This document shows positions 1-6,381 of a DNA stretch of 6,381 nucleotides, one piece after another. The notes under the pieces were generated by a model, which was given only the letters and a program-made list of their open reading frames with translations, did no database searches and was not told the DNA's origin. Position 1 is the stretch's first letter. Each line of letters begins with the position of its first letter. Source of the DNA: Deltaproteobacteria bacterium RIFOXYA12_FULL_61_11 (lineage in GTDB: Bacteria > Bdellovibrionota_F > JAHFAK01 > YA12-FULL-61-11); the NCBI GenBank assembly GCA_001799195.1, contig MGSU01000266.1:1-6381 (forward strand), in the 5' to 3' direction. The translations under genes and the position numbers were made by a program.

Positions 1-10
1 TGTAGAAGGA

Positions 11-31
11 CGGGAGATCGTCATGCTCCCG
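11..31. repeat. Stem-loop with GTAG nearby, REP-like candidate
   Basis: CGGGAG (11-16) and CTCCCG (26-31) form a perfect 6-bp stem around a 9-nt loop, with the tetranucleotide GTAG at 2-5 just outside. REP elements mobilised by RAYT transposases are typically a GTAG-type tetranucleotide followed by a short palindrome, and a RAYT-like relic covers this site. The stem also lies inside an open reading frame, so it may simply be coding sequence. Confidence -1.
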
Positions 32-101
32 TGAGTCTGAAACTGCTTGTACGAACTGCTCCACCACCGCTCTGGAGAATGATGGGAGATCGTCTTGCTC
101 C
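12..101. repeat. Two direct repeat copies, 72 bp apart, in the transposase tail
   Basis: The 18-mer at 12-29 (GGGAGATCGTCATGCTCC) recurs at 84-101 with a single change (A23 versus T95), exactly 72 bp later. The spacing is a multiple of three and preserves the minus-strand frame, giving REHDDLPSF and QEQDDLPSF 24 residues apart. The outer stem pairing of the first copy is not kept in the second, which has only GGAG/CTCC plus wobble pairs. That favours a coding repeat over two conserved hairpins. Further copies could lie left of the window. Confidence -1.
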
Positions 102-472
102 TGCGAGGGTTTCCCCTGCTCTTGGCGGTGGGCTTCTACCATCTCACGATAGACAGCACAACGCTCGGCATCGGTCTCGCCCAGGGCCAACCAGGCCTCC
201 GAGGTGTCGATGCGGTCGTCGCGCTCAAGACCCGCGTAATGGCTGTAGCCGCAGAAACGGTAGTCCTGCGGTAGGGTGCGCTCCTCGCTGTTCCAACGGT
301 TGAGTGCGATATAGCGCTGCACGGAAAGGATCGCCTCCCAACTATCCCAATGATGCATCGAAGTCCTACCTGGGAATGAAGGACCTGGGAACTCTGACCT
401 CGCCGAATAGGCTTGTCATCGGCCGGGGTTCGGTCTATGGCAGAGCCGGTGACGGCAACGGCGACGGAAACC

Positions 473-1165: not shown

Positions 1166-1944
1166 ACACGCGACGCGAACCCGGCATCGTCTATCTGGTC
1201 GGCGCTGGTCCGGGGGATCCCGAACTGCTGACCCTCAAAGCCGCCAGGCTGCTCGCTCTGGCCGACGTGGTCTTGTATGATTATTTGGTTGACGAACGCG
1301 TCCTCGGGCACGTCAACCCGGCGGCCGAGCTGCACTATGTCGGCAAGAAGAGCGGCGTGCACACCCTGCCGCAAGAGAAGATTAACGCTTTGCTGGTGGC
1401 CGAGGCCAAGGCGGGCAAGACCGTGGTGAGGCTCAAGGGAGGTGACCCCTTCGTCTTCGGCCGGGGTTCCGAGGAAGCCCTCGAACTGGTGAAGCACGGC
1501 CTTCGGTTCGAGGTGGTGCCCGGCATCTCCTCGGCCATCGCCGTCCCGGCCTATGCCGGTATCCCGGTGACCCATCGAGAGATCACCTCCAGCCTCATGA
1601 TCATCACCGGTCACGAATCGACCCGCAAGCACCAGACCGACCTCGATTGGTACAAGATCTCCCTGGGTAAAGAAACCCTGGTCTTCCTGATGGGGGTAAA
1701 GAACCTGGCCTTCATCGTCGAGCAACTCATCGCCCACGGCAAGGATCCCGGAACCCTCGTAGCCGTGATCGAGTGGGGCACCTTTCCCCGCCAACGCACC
1801 GTGGTAGGGACCCTCACCACCATCGTCGAACTGACTGCCGCGGCACGCTTCTCGCCGCCATCGGTCATCGTCATCGGTCCGATCGTTGCGTTGCGCGAAC
1901 AACTGCGCTGGTTCGACCGCGAGCAGGATCATGGAAGCACCTGA
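1162..1944 (+). CDS. cobA: Uroporphyrinogen-III C-methyltransferase (SUMT)
   Basis: This 260-residue enzyme methylates uroporphyrinogen III at C2 and C7 using S-adenosylmethionine, giving precorrin-2, the branch point to siroheme and cobalamin. The tetrapyrrole-methylase hallmarks appear in order: YLVGAGPGDPELLTLKA (residues 11-27, SAM-binding P-loop-like turn), VLYDYLV (37-43), VRLKGGDPFVFGRGSEE (89-105), VVPGISSAIAVPAYAGIPVTHR (118-139, shortened here to its key parts PGISS and GIPVTHR), MIITGH (146-151), LVFLMGV (173-179) and the C-terminal AVIEWGTFPRQRTVVGTL (201-218). The length is normal for a single-domain SUMT. It is not fused to the dehydrogenase as in enteric CysG, but the preceding gene supplies that half, joined by a 4-nt ATGA overlap. 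Together the two convert uroporphyrinogen III to siroheme. No other cobalamin genes are visible, so a siroheme role is more likely than B12. The start is set by the AAGGAGG site. Confidence -1.
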   Translation: MNTRREPGIVYLVGAGPGDPELLTLKAARLLALADVVLYDYLVDERVLGHVNPAAELHYVGKKSGVHTLPQEKINALLVAEAKAGKTVVRLKGGDPFVFGRGSEEALELVKHGLRFEVVPGISSAIAVPAYAGIPVTHREITSSLMIITGHESTRKHQTDLDWYKISLGKETLVFLMGVKNLAFIVEQLIAHGKDPGTLVAVIEWGTFPRQRTVVGTLTTIVELTAAARFSPPSVIVIGPIVALREQLRWFDREQDHGST

Positions 1945-3805
1945 GCCTTGTGCAGCCTCGAGGCGCCTCCTGCGCATTGGCTTCCTCGCACTTGCCCTTG
2001 CGATCTTGGGCATCTGCTATGCGAGGACCGCGGCGAGGTTCGAACTCTCCTCGCACGATCTCATCTGGGCTAGTGAACCCCCCCTCGGGTTGATCCTCAA
2101 GCAGGTCGCGCTATTGGCGGGAGACCTCGTTTCCCCGGTCTGGCGCCTCCACACCAACCATGAAGCCCCGGGCAACCTCTTCCCTCTCTCCTACGCTCTC
2201 CCTTTGCATTGGTTCGGCACATCCTACGAAATCCTCGAGAAGACCATCCTCTTAGGGGCTGTCATCTTCCTGGCAGTCTTCATCTTGACGGTCCACTCCC
2301 TCGCCGGTCAGAAACCAGGCTTCGACCTCAAGACCTTGAATGTCGCGCTGGTAGTACCGGCTACCCCGTACCTCGACCTGCACCTGCACTTCCTCCCACC
2401 GGCAAATGGCCTCGCGGTGTTGCTGTTGCTCGGTCTCGTACTCCTCACCGGTCTCTGCACAACTCCCATCCGGTTCAAATTCCACCGGCTCGCCCTCCTC
2501 GGTATCCTGATCACAACGATCTGTAAGTGGCCTCCTCTTACCACGGAAGTCGTGGCCACGCTCGCCCCCCTCGGGTGCTACCTGCTGTTCCTCTTCCTCG
2601 CCAAGGACCGGGATCCCGCGTCGCTGCCGTCCCAATCCCCATCAACATCGCTAAAGACCTGGTTGTTGCCGGGGTTGGTGCTCATCCTTCTGCCCTTGGC
2701 CATCTTACAATGGTGGCCGACGATCATTGCTCACCATGACCGCAGTACCCAACCACTCTCCGAGTACCTCGTGTACCTCGGTCAACGCCTCGCCCCAACG
2801 GACAGTCTGCCGACCTTTTCTCGATCGGACTTCCTCCGCTGGATAGTCCTGCCCCTCGGATGGCCCCTCTTCGCTCTTGCGCTCCTGTTCAGACGAAGGC
2901 CCCAGCCGGTCGTGCTCGCACTCTTGGGTACCTTCCTCACCTGTATTCTTGGCTTGATGCTCTCGCCGGTTCGTTGGCCGGACTACTTATTCCCCCTGCT
3001 CGTTCTGGGTCCCCTGTGCACTGCCCTGTTGATGCTCCGCGAGCAGAACCACCGCTTCCAGGCCTGCATGAGCCTTGGTCTCGTGATCGTCACCCTCCTG
3101 GTGCCGTGGTGGTCCGAAGCGCAACCACCTCCGTTCAACGGACTCCCACGTATGCTGAGCGAGAATCACTCGGCGATCTATGAACACGGCCTTGTGTTGA
3201 TCGAGGAACGGTTCGGGCCGGAGGAGGTGCGGCGTAGCAAACACCTCCTGGTCGGCGAACGGATCCACGAGTACGATCACCTGCACGAACACCTGCCGCT
3301 GGCCCTTCTGAGCCGCGGAGCGGGCATCGTTGAACTAGCCCTCACTTCGGAGTTGCACCCGCCCGACTGGCCGGACCTCCTCACGCACGATCTGATCTGG
3401 TTCGGTCTGGCACTCGAACGCACCCGAGCTTGTACGCTCCTTACCCAGGGAGGGACCTTCGCCGACCTGCTTTTCGTCGCCACCCATTTCTTCGGTCGCG
3501 AGACCAGGTTGTCCCCCTATCGTCCGAGCGTCCTGGCGCGTTCCTCCCCGGGCAAGCTCACTCAGTGCTTCGCGGAGACCGAGCTCCACAAGTGGCCCCC
3601 GGGGATACTTCTGCCCGACAGCCTCCTTTTCCTCGCGGAAGTGCAGGATTGCCTGCGCCTCGAGGCTCCGGGGTATCTCGAGGCCTTCACCGCCTATGCC
3701 GAACAGCAGCACCAGGTGTTGCTCGCCTCCTATGAACTCCTCGAACTTGCACCCAACCTGTGCGTCTTCCTCAAGCGCCCTCTCCGGGACCGACTACTCC
3801 GATGA
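1931..3805 (+). CDS. Large polytopic membrane protein of unknown function, possibly GT-C-like
   Basis: I do not recognise this 624-residue protein. The first two thirds are membrane-embedded, with about ten hydrophobic segments: roughly 14-30, 104-123, 136-147, 159-176, 187-199, 204-223, 243-262, 302-320, 326-344, 350-369 and 378-394. The charged loop between the first two (31-103) contains SSHDLIWASEPP. Residues 395-624 look soluble and include a His/acid-rich stretch (HEYDHLHEHL, 446-455). An acidic motif after the first helix, many membrane spans and a soluble C-terminal domain are the usual plan of GT-C lipid-linked-sugar glycosyltransferases, but no diagnostic motif is clear, so that is only a guess. 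The ATG at 1931 is preferred over a TTG at 1886 because it begins just before the first membrane helix; AGGA lies only 2 nt upstream. It overlaps the methyltransferase gene by 14 bp, suggesting cotranscription and coupled translation. A link to siroheme is unproven. Confidence -1.
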   Translation: MEAPEPCAASRRLLRIGFLALALAILGICYARTAARFELSSHDLIWASEPPLGLILKQVALLAGDLVSPVWRLHTNHEAPGNLFPLSYALPLHWFGTSYEILEKTILLGAVIFLAVFILTVHSLAGQKPGFDLKTLNVALVVPATPYLDLHLHFLPPANGLAVLLLLGLVLLTGLCTTPIRFKFHRLALLGILITTICKWPPLTTEVVATLAPLGCYLLFLFLAKDRDPASLPSQSPSTSLKTWLLPGLVLILLPLAILQWWPTIIAHHDRSTQPLSEYLVYLGQRLAPTDSLPTFSRSDFLRWIVLPLGWPLFALALLFRRRPQPVVLALLGTFLTCILGLMLSPVRWPDYLFPLLVLGPLCTALLMLREQNHRFQACMSLGLVIVTLLVPWWSEAQPPPFNGLPRMLSENHSAIYEHGLVLIEERFGPEEVRRSKHLLVGERIHEYDHLHEHLPLALLSRGAGIVELALTSELHPPDWPDLLTHDLIWFGLALERTRACTLLTQGGTFADLLFVATHFFGRETRLSPYRPSVLARSSPGKLTQCFAETELHKWPPGILLPDSLLFLAEVQDCLRLEAPGYLEAFTAYAEQQHQVLLASYELLELAPNLCVFLKRPLRDRLLR

Positions 3806-4017: not shown

Positions 4018-6381
4018 TCACTCCCTCCCGTACAACCAACCCTCGCGCTGGCGGAGGTTGAGGCGGTCGAGCCGCCGCACGGCCTCGGCATGGCTGATCA
4101 ACTCGGCGGCCAGGAGTTTGTAGGTCAGATCCGCCTCTTTCCGCCGACGCACGCTGTCGAAGGTATCGAACCAGGCATTGAGGACGGTCTTCCACCAGGT
4201 CCGCCGAGTCAGGGTCGGCTGCTCTACCCGAGCGACCCCGGTGGTTTCCTTCGTGGCAACCTGTGCTTGCAACCGCTCGAGGAGAGCCAACTCCTCGATC
4301 CCAAGCCCTCGTCCACCCTCGCCGCCGCGCTGGGTGAGTTCGGCCACCACGAGTTCGGCATCGAAGCGGGAAAAGTGTTTCCGCTGGAGCAGCCACTCGA
4401 AGGCTTGTTCTTGCAAGAAGACGTCCTGACCACTGAACTGCTCGAGCCGTTGCACGACCTGCTCGTGCTCAGTCCAAAACTCGACGAAGCGCAGCCCCGG
4501 TCCCTTGATGTTCTGAGCACCGACGACCTGGACCGAGGACTTGGGCGGAACGGACCCGAGGATGACCTCGACCAGGCCCTCGGCGCTGACGTCGAAATCC
4601 GGTACCACGACAACCCGCTGGAGGAAGGTTGCCCGGACCATTGCTACCAGGGAAGGGCACGTGGTCTCGAAGCCGTCGCTCTCCGTAAGATCGAGCAGGT
4701 GGCGAGCCAACTCGTTCCAGGCGAGTTCCTCCACACAGACGTTCGCCGCAACCTCGAGGTCTGCCTCGTTCTCCCAGGTCCCACCGAGCTTTTCCAGAAG
4801 AGGTTTCACCTCGCTCACGAGCCCGGCGACGGCTTCGCTCACGAGCCGGGGTTGATCCTCTCGGAGCAGAGGCACGACCAGCGCGGCACAGCGTTCGGCG
4901 AGCGGGGCGAAGAGCCTGTCCGTCTCTTCGACAGTACTCCCGAGCCAGGCAGTCAGGGCCGGCCGCCAGTCGCATCCCCTCTCCACCTCGACCCTCACCT
5001 TGGCGAGGAGTTGGGTCAACCAGTGCCGGCGTTGCTCGGGCTCGGTGCTGAGCGGCCGTGGCCGCAGAGCGAGGTACTGCCCGAAATAATACTCGACCAG
5101 GTCGCGGAATTCGCGCACCGCACTGCCCACGACCAGGACGGCCGAGGGGAACACATCCTCGACCACGGTCTTGGCAAAAACATGGGAACGGGCAGGCCGA
5201 TCGGCGCGGTTGTTGATCATCAGCACCAAGGGCTGGGCAAGATTGTCCTCGCGCTTCCAGCGATCGAGCTGCAGGCCTCGCAGGCTGGCAAGGAACCCTG
5301 CCCGCTCGTTGGCCGCCATGGTGTTGCCGAACACGATGCGGCGCCCGGCGAGGACAAGAGGGGCGAAGCGGCGCAACGCCCCGACATCGCCCAGGAGGTT
5401 GTCGGCCATGACCACCAGGGCCAGGTCCCGCGGGATATCGAGTTCATCGGCTAAACCGAGGCACATGGCGATATTGAGGGCATTCTCCAAGTAAGGAAAG
5501 CGGCCGAGGTACTCCTCGGGGATCAACCTGGCATAGACCTCGGGCACGGTGAGCACCTCGGTCCCCTTGAATCTGCCGGCCTCGGCCAGGAGAGGATAGG
5601 ACTGGCCCTCGGCGGTGATGAGCTTGGATTTCCGGGGGATGAACAGGGAGATGGTCGTGGCCACGTCGTAACCCGTGGGGCCCTGGATATCCTCGTGGTC
5701 GGGATAGGTATTGGTCACGGTGGCCAGGTCGTCCTTCATCCAGTCGTGGGCCAGGATCTGGACATAACGGGGGTTGAGGGCCATGCACTCCCACAAGAAG
5801 ACCTGGGTGTCCATGGCCGAAGCCTGTTCCAGGACCCGGAGCTGTTCGAAGATGGTGGCTTTGTCGTACGGTCTGAAGATCGGCACCTCGACCTGGTCGA
5901 TCCCCGGGAAACTCGAGATGAACATCGCCTCCGAACCGGTGGTCTTGGAGAAGACCTGGTAACCGAGACCGGTGAACAGTCCTGCCTTGAGCCGTTCGCT
6001 GCCGGATTTTCCGCGCGAACCCCAGCCCCCGATGCAGAGCGGCATCGAGCGACGCCAATGGGTTATCCTGCGACGCCGCTGAACAGCGAGAGCGGCAAAG
6101 GTCCCGCTCGCGAGCCCCAGGAAGACAGCTAAATGCCACAGCCGGTTGGCATAGGGGGTCAGGAAATAATTGAAATCCACCCCGAGATCCTCGAGGGTGC
6201 GGAGCAGGTCCAATCCTGGGATAGCAGCCAATCGGATCGGAACTCCGGAGCGGCGAGGCCGCTCCCAGAGGCCATCGGTCGAACGCAGGACCACCTGCTG
6301 GCCCGTCACCTCCTCATAGTCGCTCAGGTACTGCTCGATTTCGGCGGCATTGCCCTGTCTGACCGCACCATAGCGGCGTAC
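4018..6381 (-). CDS. pgsB: Enlarged PgsB/CapB-family poly-gamma-glutamate synthase (Mur-ligase type), 5' end outside window
   Basis: The frame is open from the right edge to the TGA at 4020-4018, giving 787 visible residues. A GTG at 6309 is an internal codon; 24 more codons precede it without a stop. Numbering from that GTG, there is one probable membrane anchor (57-76) followed by RRRR. The ligase core follows: P-loop GSRGKSG (97-103; PgsB has GIRGKST), SKTTGSEAM (121-129), ECMALNP (174-180), NTYPDHEDIQGPT (200-212), GNTMAANER (328-336), NNRADRPARS (366-375) and QNIKGPG (599-605, compare GVGNIHG). These match PgsB/CapB, which activates glutamate with ATP to extend poly-gamma-glutamate at the membrane. 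Bacillus PgsB has about 390 residues. Here roughly 150 residues are inserted between about 408 and 592, and about 160 follow the last core motif. The residue after GKS is Gly instead of Thr. No pgsC follows downstream. The family call is firm; the polymer made is inferred and could be another amide-linked product. Confidence -1.
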   Translation of the reverse strand, partial: VRRYGAVRQGNAAEIEQYLSDYEEVTGQQVVLRSTDGLWERPRRSGVPIRLAAIPGLDLLRTLEDLGVDFNYFLTPYANRLWHLAVFLGLASGTFAALAVQRRRRITHWRRSMPLCIGGWGSRGKSGSERLKAGLFTGLGYQVFSKTTGSEAMFISSFPGIDQVEVPIFRPYDKATIFEQLRVLEQASAMDTQVFLWECMALNPRYVQILAHDWMKDDLATVTNTYPDHEDIQGPTGYDVATTISLFIPRKSKLITAEGQSYPLLAEAGRFKGTEVLTVPEVYARLIPEEYLGRFPYLENALNIAMCLGLADELDIPRDLALVVMADNLLGDVGALRRFAPLVLAGRRIVFGNTMAANERAGFLASLRGLQLDRWKREDNLAQPLVLMINNRADRPARSHVFAKTVVEDVFPSAVLVVGSAVREFRDLVEYYFGQYLALRPRPLSTEPEQRRHWLTQLLAKVRVEVERGCDWRPALTAWLGSTVEETDRLFAPLAERCAALVVPLLREDQPRLVSEAVAGLVSEVKPLLEKLGGTWENEADLEVAANVCVEELAWNELARHLLDLTESDGFETTCPSLVAMVRATFLQRVVVVPDFDVSAEGLVEVILGSVPPKSSVQVVGAQNIKGPGLRFVEFWTEHEQVVQRLEQFSGQDVFLQEQAFEWLLQRKHFSRFDAELVVAELTQRGGEGGRGLGIEELALLERLQAQVATKETTGVARVEQPTLTRRTWWKTVLNAWFDTFDSVRRRKEADLTYKLLAAELISHAEAVRRLDRLNLRQREGWLYGRE
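4811..4847. repeat. Short tandem repeat, 24-bp period, inside the pgsB-like gene
   Basis: TCGCTCACGAGCC occurs at 4811-4823 and again at 4835-4847, exactly 24 bp apart. On the minus strand this encodes LVSEAVAG followed by LVSEVKPL, within the inserted region of the PgsB-like protein. The period keeps the frame and fits a small in-frame duplication in a helical segment. Confidence -1.

Follow-up and report, generated by a model that had tools for sequence, protein, structure and literature searches.

A family of long PgsB-related ligases and its partner genes: a candidate polyglutamate-type system in outer-membrane bacteria

Poly-gamma-glutamate (PGA) is known chiefly from Bacillus and its relatives, in which the chain crosses one membrane. 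Our study revealed a family of long PgsB-related ligases in outer-membrane bacteria; several hundred of them carry it, and the same partner genes almost always accompany it. In the passages that describe it, the CapsuleFinder model for PGA capsules makes CapB and CapC mandatory and finds loci in most phyla, including Planctomycetes (PMC5542703). That model was built on the Bacillus operon CapABCDE, and the same passages mention neither a long CapB nor a tandem CapC nor partners in the outer membrane (PMC5542703). PgsB/PgsC or PGA-type loci have been reported from many phyla, with no long form in the passages that report them (PMC4497714, PMC5542703). Among open-licence PMC papers, neither a description of a long PgsB nor polymer production by any member of the long family was found, and an account in a subscription journal is possible.

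The window, which is the whole stretch of DNA that was analysed, is the entire contig C266 (6,381 bp) from a draft genome of 4.64 Mb in which a search found no 16S rRNA. Its minus-strand ORF (6381..4018) is open across 787 codons and runs off the end of the window, which is the end of the contig; it is the C-terminal portion of a gene truncated at the contig edge. As the earlier note had it, the start is not seen: the P-loop lies at residues 118-127, with more than 115 residues upstream of it, and the start codon falls outside the window. The features of the ORF, all on the minus strand, are as follows.

6145..6381, minus strand: residues 1-79, the end of the HEAT-like N-terminal half and a linker, from alignment to a full-length relative; low model confidence.
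6049..6141, minus strand: residues 81-111, a long hydrophobic helix in the model, by its sequence a likely membrane anchor, comparable to the N-terminus of ordinary PgsB.
5083..6042, minus strand: residues 114-433, the ATP-binding and central part of a PgsB-type Mur ligase (TIGR04012 match, Mur ligase fold), the most conserved part of the family.
6001..6030, minus strand: P-loop GGWGSRGKSG, residues 118-127; G121 and R123-S126 are common to ordinary and long forms, and the flanks differ.
5782..5793, minus strand: WECM, residues 197-200, containing the conserved glutamate E198.
5692..5703, minus strand: PDHE, residues 227-230, containing the conserved D228 and H229.
4618..5067, minus strand: residues 439-588, a helical insert within the C-terminal ligase domain, all-helical in the model and not in ordinary PgsB; conservation 0.25.
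4432..4617, minus strand: residues 589-650, the rest of the C-terminal ligase domain (strands and a helix), from the model and fold comparison.
4501..4515, minus strand: QNIKG, residues 623-627, the counterpart of GNIHG by alignment.
4018..4431, minus strand: residues 651-787 and the stop codon, a helical tail in the model, with its last 47 residues well conserved; a second match in both long relatives, G319 and G219.

The remainder of the window carries unfused, overlapping siroheme genes on the plus strand (413-1944), namely a precorrin-2 dehydrogenase-like gene (413-1165) and a tetrapyrrole methylase (1162-1944). These are followed by a 623-aa hydrophobic protein (1934-3805, plus strand), probably a multi-pass membrane protein, which is convergent with the ligase gene and gave no Pfam or NCBIfam match. 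A 119-aa frame (2-358, minus strand) is open off the left contig end and by eye resembles a REP-type transposase end, with no family match above cut-off.

The missing HEAT-like half was recovered by searching the same genome with the protein of the long relative G319, and forms the last 593 codons of contig C330 (L043:3275-5054). In pairwise matches to a full-length relative (L044), C330 stops near residue 583 and C266 starts near residue 597. As both contigs align to this relative with only ~14 residues absent between them, the whole protein is reconstructed at ~1,390 aa, the usual length for the family. The earlier note had estimated a ligase of about twice the normal size, which falls short of the ~3.5-fold obtained once the half on C330 is counted; its proposed search for the true start and neighbours led to this half and to an operon spread over contigs C62, C330 and C266. 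The relative G319 carries the HEAT-like half and the ligase in one frame of 1,373 aa, and in G219 the HEAT-like half is a separate gene immediately upstream of the ligase. A gene split between the contigs of a draft genome may suggest that the length stems from a frameshift, chimera or read-through, the first of which, with assembly error, had been named beforehand as grounds for rejection. We give such an artefact a negligible probability: the complete chromosomes of Sulfidibacter corallicola and Sorangium cellulosum and many isolates match the same residues at length, most loci have full-length frames, and conserved full-length relatives refute it. The long relatives have the same insert and tail, so the length of the protein is not the product of a frameshift or of misassembly.

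The ligase itself was matched in NCBIfam by TIGR04012 (PgsB) only, over residues 94-431 (E 4e-58, 197 bits), which is below the curated cut-off of 222.7 bits. This was so in all 11 long members tested (197 for the window protein and 189-219 for ten others), and long ligases escape the PgsB name because they score just under the NCBI cut-off. Pfam gave no family for the window ORF and no plausible family in any of the 33 long members tested, and a PDB sequence search with the ligase profile returned no match. The AlphaFold model, built on a 33-row alignment, has a pLDDT of 85.5 and a pTM of 0.84, and displays a Mur ligase fold across residues ~95-640. Its nearest folds are MurE (Z 19.6; 3.5 A over 356 residues), FolC/FPGS (~19) and cyanophycin synthetase (~17-18). 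Ordinary and long forms have core residues such as G121, R123-S126, E198, D228, H229, N358, R392, D394 and R395 in common, and judging from its sequence the long ligase should therefore have kept its ATP chemistry. The P-loop flanks and ~50 other positions are fixed differently in long forms than in ordinary PgsB.

The extra regions lie around this core. In ordinary PgsB, GNIxG is found ~34 residues past the core with ~16 residues after the motif, whereas in the window protein QNIKG is 187 residues past the core and is followed by 160 residues, which bears out the claim of extra residues on both sides of a GNIHG-like motif. When aligned with it, G319 and G219 each proved to have additional sequence ahead of QNIKG and an extended tail; the GGWG.RGKSG P-loop and the QNIKG motif do not vary. 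In the model, the insert (439-588) is set between C-terminal-domain strands 414-419 and 590-592/616-622. It is poorly conserved, with a mean share of the commonest residue of 0.25, as is the middle of the tail, and the tail end reaches 0.56. This would point to a docking role for insert and tail, and not to a further active site. HEAT repeats were detected by Pfam in most, not all, members (best E 7e-11; over the cut-off in 3/6 relatives, and weak in the window's own protein). No ATP-grasp domain was found by Pfam in the N-terminal halves of six relatives and the window's own half, which gave HEAT or nothing convincing. The earlier description of a PgsB-like ligase with extra regions is thus confirmed by the TIGR04012 match and by an insert and tail common to long relatives, and its remark that these regions bear no recognizable motif agrees with their matching no known family by sequence.

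The first two long relatives came from a sample of 386 genomes (G319, with 46% identity across residues 70-436, and G219, with 40%). An alignment-based scan of 84,980 genomes, one per species, yielded 333 matching loci. Scans of genome and viral collections with single-sequence patterns found no match, nor did phage records, and the matches on plasmids were only partial, below 60% identity and, wherever they bore a name, listed as ordinary PgsB. Of these 333 loci, 80 were kept, from Pseudomonadota (33), Myxococcota (26), Planctomycetota (6), Acidobacteriota (4), Nitrospirota (2), Thermodesulfobacteriota (2) and one each of Bdellovibrionota, Poribacteria and Walliibacteriota, with the rest unplaced; we take all of these phyla to be diderm groups. 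The genome of the window holds three Omp85 matches, and because Omp85 proteins are present the host most likely has an outer membrane, in keeping with the Gram-negative host supposed in the earlier note.

Long and ordinary forms are clearly separated. The HEAT half and ligase share one frame in 70/75 loci from which the ligase was recovered, and the tail past the core spans 43-80 residues in ordinary and 300-470 in long forms, with outliers of 199 (a contig-truncated form) and 817 (a mis-bounded match). Core scores are ≤187 bits for ordinary and ≥441 bits for long forms, with no intermediates. In the tree of the shared core, which is unrooted and in which several ordinary PgsB rows are long branches, a branch 3.62 changes per site long, supported at 100/100, divides the long forms from the remaining sequences. 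The tree proposed earlier sets them apart from ordinary PgsB. Homologues sharing the same regions do exist, as the alternative of a described PgsB subfamily would have it, but they form a separate clade for which no description was found. These proteins are best called a PgsB-related ligase family; by the NCBI model they fall outside PgsB proper. Two apparent giant fusions of 2,947 and 3,074 aa (L056, L073) were rejected; homology in L056 starts at residue 1542, preceded by arginine-rich read-through in a GC-rich frame, and L073 is presumed to be alike.

Stretches of ~20 kb from 16 genomes revealed a usual gene order, held in most of the 16: a sensor of ~890 aa, a tandem CapC protein (CapC2) of ~1,080 aa, a periplasmic protein (PERI) of ~820 aa, a hydrolase (HYD) of ~300 aa, an outer-membrane-like protein (OMP) of ~1,730 aa and the HEAT-PgsB ligase. 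The window's own genome has the same order on three contigs, with the sensor, CapC2, PERI, HYD and the first ~390 OMP codons on C62, the remaining OMP and the HEAT half on C330, and the ligase of the window on C266. Three of the operon protein families have no Pfam family above cut-off. Neither CapA/PgsA nor PgsE was seen in the operon, the genes of which had no PF09587 match; a PF09587 protein in the same genome is on contig C335, unlinked to the operon as far as the contigs show.

Variants of this arrangement were also observed. CapC2 and the periplasmic genes are downstream of the ligase in a Holophagae genome and Sulfidibacter corallicola (L048:15229-20921; L050:15205-20948; L093), the latter having a second copy of the system at L093. 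In a Planctomycetota genome (L054/L144; L144:1-19901) the cluster forms divergent halves, with OMP and HEAT-PgsB on one strand and the sensor, CapC2 and PERI on the opposite strand. Erythrobacteraceae (Qipengyuania, Alteripontixanthobacter; L145, L058) have a CapC2 of 822-844 aa, a periplasmic protein of ~250 aa and no OMP. A second stand-alone hydrolase-like gene of 426 aa is found in Pyxidicoccus (L135:5068-6348) just upstream of CapC2, near the position of the sensor in other genomes.

That the modules are neutral decoration on an enzyme with ordinary PgsB function, beside genes for unrelated envelope functions, would agree with the poor conservation of the insert and mid-tail. We nevertheless consider this improbable, as the tail end is well conserved, the HEAT, insert and tail modules are present in every complete long form surveyed, and the order of the operon genes is kept between phyla.

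CapC2 contains two PF14102 domains above cut-off, is ~1,050-1,130 aa long and scores under the TIGR04011 cut-off. Tandem PF14102 was found in 39/40 genomes with a long PgsB and was clustered with the ligase in 33 of the 36 that could be placed, 31 of them ~5-16 kb upstream and 2 at 5.7 kb downstream. The presence of CapC2 in the window's own genome and in these 39 of 40 rules out the earlier suggestion that the extra regions of the enlarged ligase replace PgsC. In most operons the CapC part of CapC2 is followed by two copies of the HYD domain in which the active-site pattern has been lost (L126:4786-7947; L130-L142). In the genome of the window, a short run of unknown residues from masked bases breaks the frame of CapC2 (L126, on C62). 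Plasmids of Chroococcidiopsis thermalis and Corynebacterium glyciniphilum carry an ordinary PgsB beside a two-domain PgsC of 333-334 aa (L127:4226-5227; L129:4209-5213), and tandem CapC is therefore not confined to the long system.

HYD had no Pfam or PDB sequence match, and its model (pLDDT 91.1, pTM 0.87) was compared by fold. The first five matches lie within ~2 Z units and are read as one group: an Agrobacterium protein (2odf, Z 13.5 over 181 residues), N-formylglutamate amidohydrolase (2q7s, 12.4), YndL with PGA (5onj, 12.0), PghP (3a9l, 11.9) and the phage PM1 gamma-PGA hydrolase (21dc, 11.3). Carboxypeptidases and succinylglutamate desuccinylase were further away (Z ~10-11). The pattern H121, D125, R151, D164, H193, E271 and R277 is intact in 14/14 stand-alone copies. 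The modelled fold of HYD would thus point independently to gamma-glutamyl chemistry, a fold not being a specificity, and a PgsB-type ligase with a hydrolase of the glutamyl-amidohydrolase type provides two independent pointers to a glutamyl polymer.

The OMP gave no convincing Pfam match. By a crude score, its last 380 residues are barrel-like, with hydrophobic alternation in 0.142 of windows compared to 0.065 when shuffled and 0.046 in the ligase, and complete members start with signal-like sequences. In Legionella yabuuchiae, Methylovulum and another member of the Methylococcaceae (L138; L133; L096:5926-8088) the OMP is split into two genes, and in the methanotrophs the second half starts with a lipoprotein-like signal. 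CHASE2 was above cut-off in 5/5 sensors tested; a histidine-kinase ATPase domain passed its cut-off in two of them and gave a weak match in a third. The conserved sensor gene adjoins CapC2, as might be expected if the operon encoded an envelope complex for stress response or signalling, with the CHASE2 sensor directing the glutamylation of a partner by the ligase and no polymer being exported. We hold this to be very improbable, since export accounts better for a tandem CapC, a secreted hydrolase and a very large, barrel-like secreted protein.

Our study therefore favours the ligase as a subunit of a six-gene, polyglutamate-like system of diderm bacteria, a reading we regard as probable. From the data above we infer what is made, how it is exported and how all the tasks are divided. 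The Mur-ligase core, with its fold and motifs, would use ATP to join glutamate or a close analogue to a chain on the inner side of the inner membrane, and docking of the ligase to tandem CapC may rest on its hydrophobic helix together with its HEAT, insert and tail modules. CapC2 would pass the chain outward, its two inactive hydrolase-like domains perhaps holding it. The linked PERI and the large secreted OMP, with its barrel-like C-terminus, may carry the chain to or through the outer membrane, the stand-alone HYD could trim or release it, and the CHASE2 histidine-kinase-like sensor would control the system.

The product could also be different, with the same machine using another amino acid or, in place of free polyglutamate, furnishing a carrier (lipid, protein or polysaccharide) with short tails of glutamyl residues. 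The long branch, the ~50 positions fixed differently, including the P-loop surroundings, the scores of all tested members under the PgsB cut-off and the many amino acids served by the Mur ligase fold all allow for this, but HYD is structurally nearest to glutamyl amidohydrolases and the partner CapC is the partner of the PGA synthase, and we deem another product rather unlikely. A poly-gamma-glutamate-like product, as first proposed in the earlier note, is supported as the likeliest guess. The strongest form of our reading is an undescribed two-membrane apparatus for gamma-linked polyglutamate, present in at least nine named diderm phyla and comprising an enlarged ligase, a CapC2 whose two dead hydrolase domains guide the chain, an active hydrolase and an exporter in the outer membrane; the case for it is evenly balanced. 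Counted against the six-gene polyglutamate-like system are the branch of 3.62, which allows a change of substrate, the scores under the TIGR04012 cut-off, an operon in which no CapA/PgsA or PgsE was seen, the crude score behind the OMP barrel and the Erythrobacteraceae that lack the OMP.

In summary, the six-gene cluster provides a concrete candidate for the making and export of polyglutamate in outer-membrane bacteria, and the carriers of long PgsB include cultured marine, soil and methanotrophic bacteria, with Marinobacter alexandrii, Halomonas daqiaonensis and Methylovulum miyakonense among the cultured, non-pathogenic ones. The long form shares with PgsB/CapB (TIGR04012) the Mur-ligase core, the RGKS P-loop, the ECM and DH motifs, the N-terminal hydrophobic helix, N-I-x-G and a CapC-type partner. 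However, PgsB/CapB is ~400 aa, compared to ~1,390 aa for a long form with a HEAT-like half, a helical insert and a helical tail, and the latter belongs to a separate clade, under the curated cut-off and in a different operon. CapC2 differs from PgsC/CapC (PF14102, TIGR04011) by its tandem form and two inactive hydrolase-like end domains. HYD shares its predicted fold with the gamma-PGA hydrolases PghP and YndL and with N-formylglutamate amidohydrolase, but has no sequence-level match to them, has its own pattern with an Asp at D125 and is encoded with the synthase. Cyanophycin synthetase CphA makes a polymer too and shares the Mur-ligase fold (Z ~17-18); it has an ATP-grasp domain N-terminal to the Mur ligase, whereas none was found in the long PgsB, which belongs to a membrane system with CapC.
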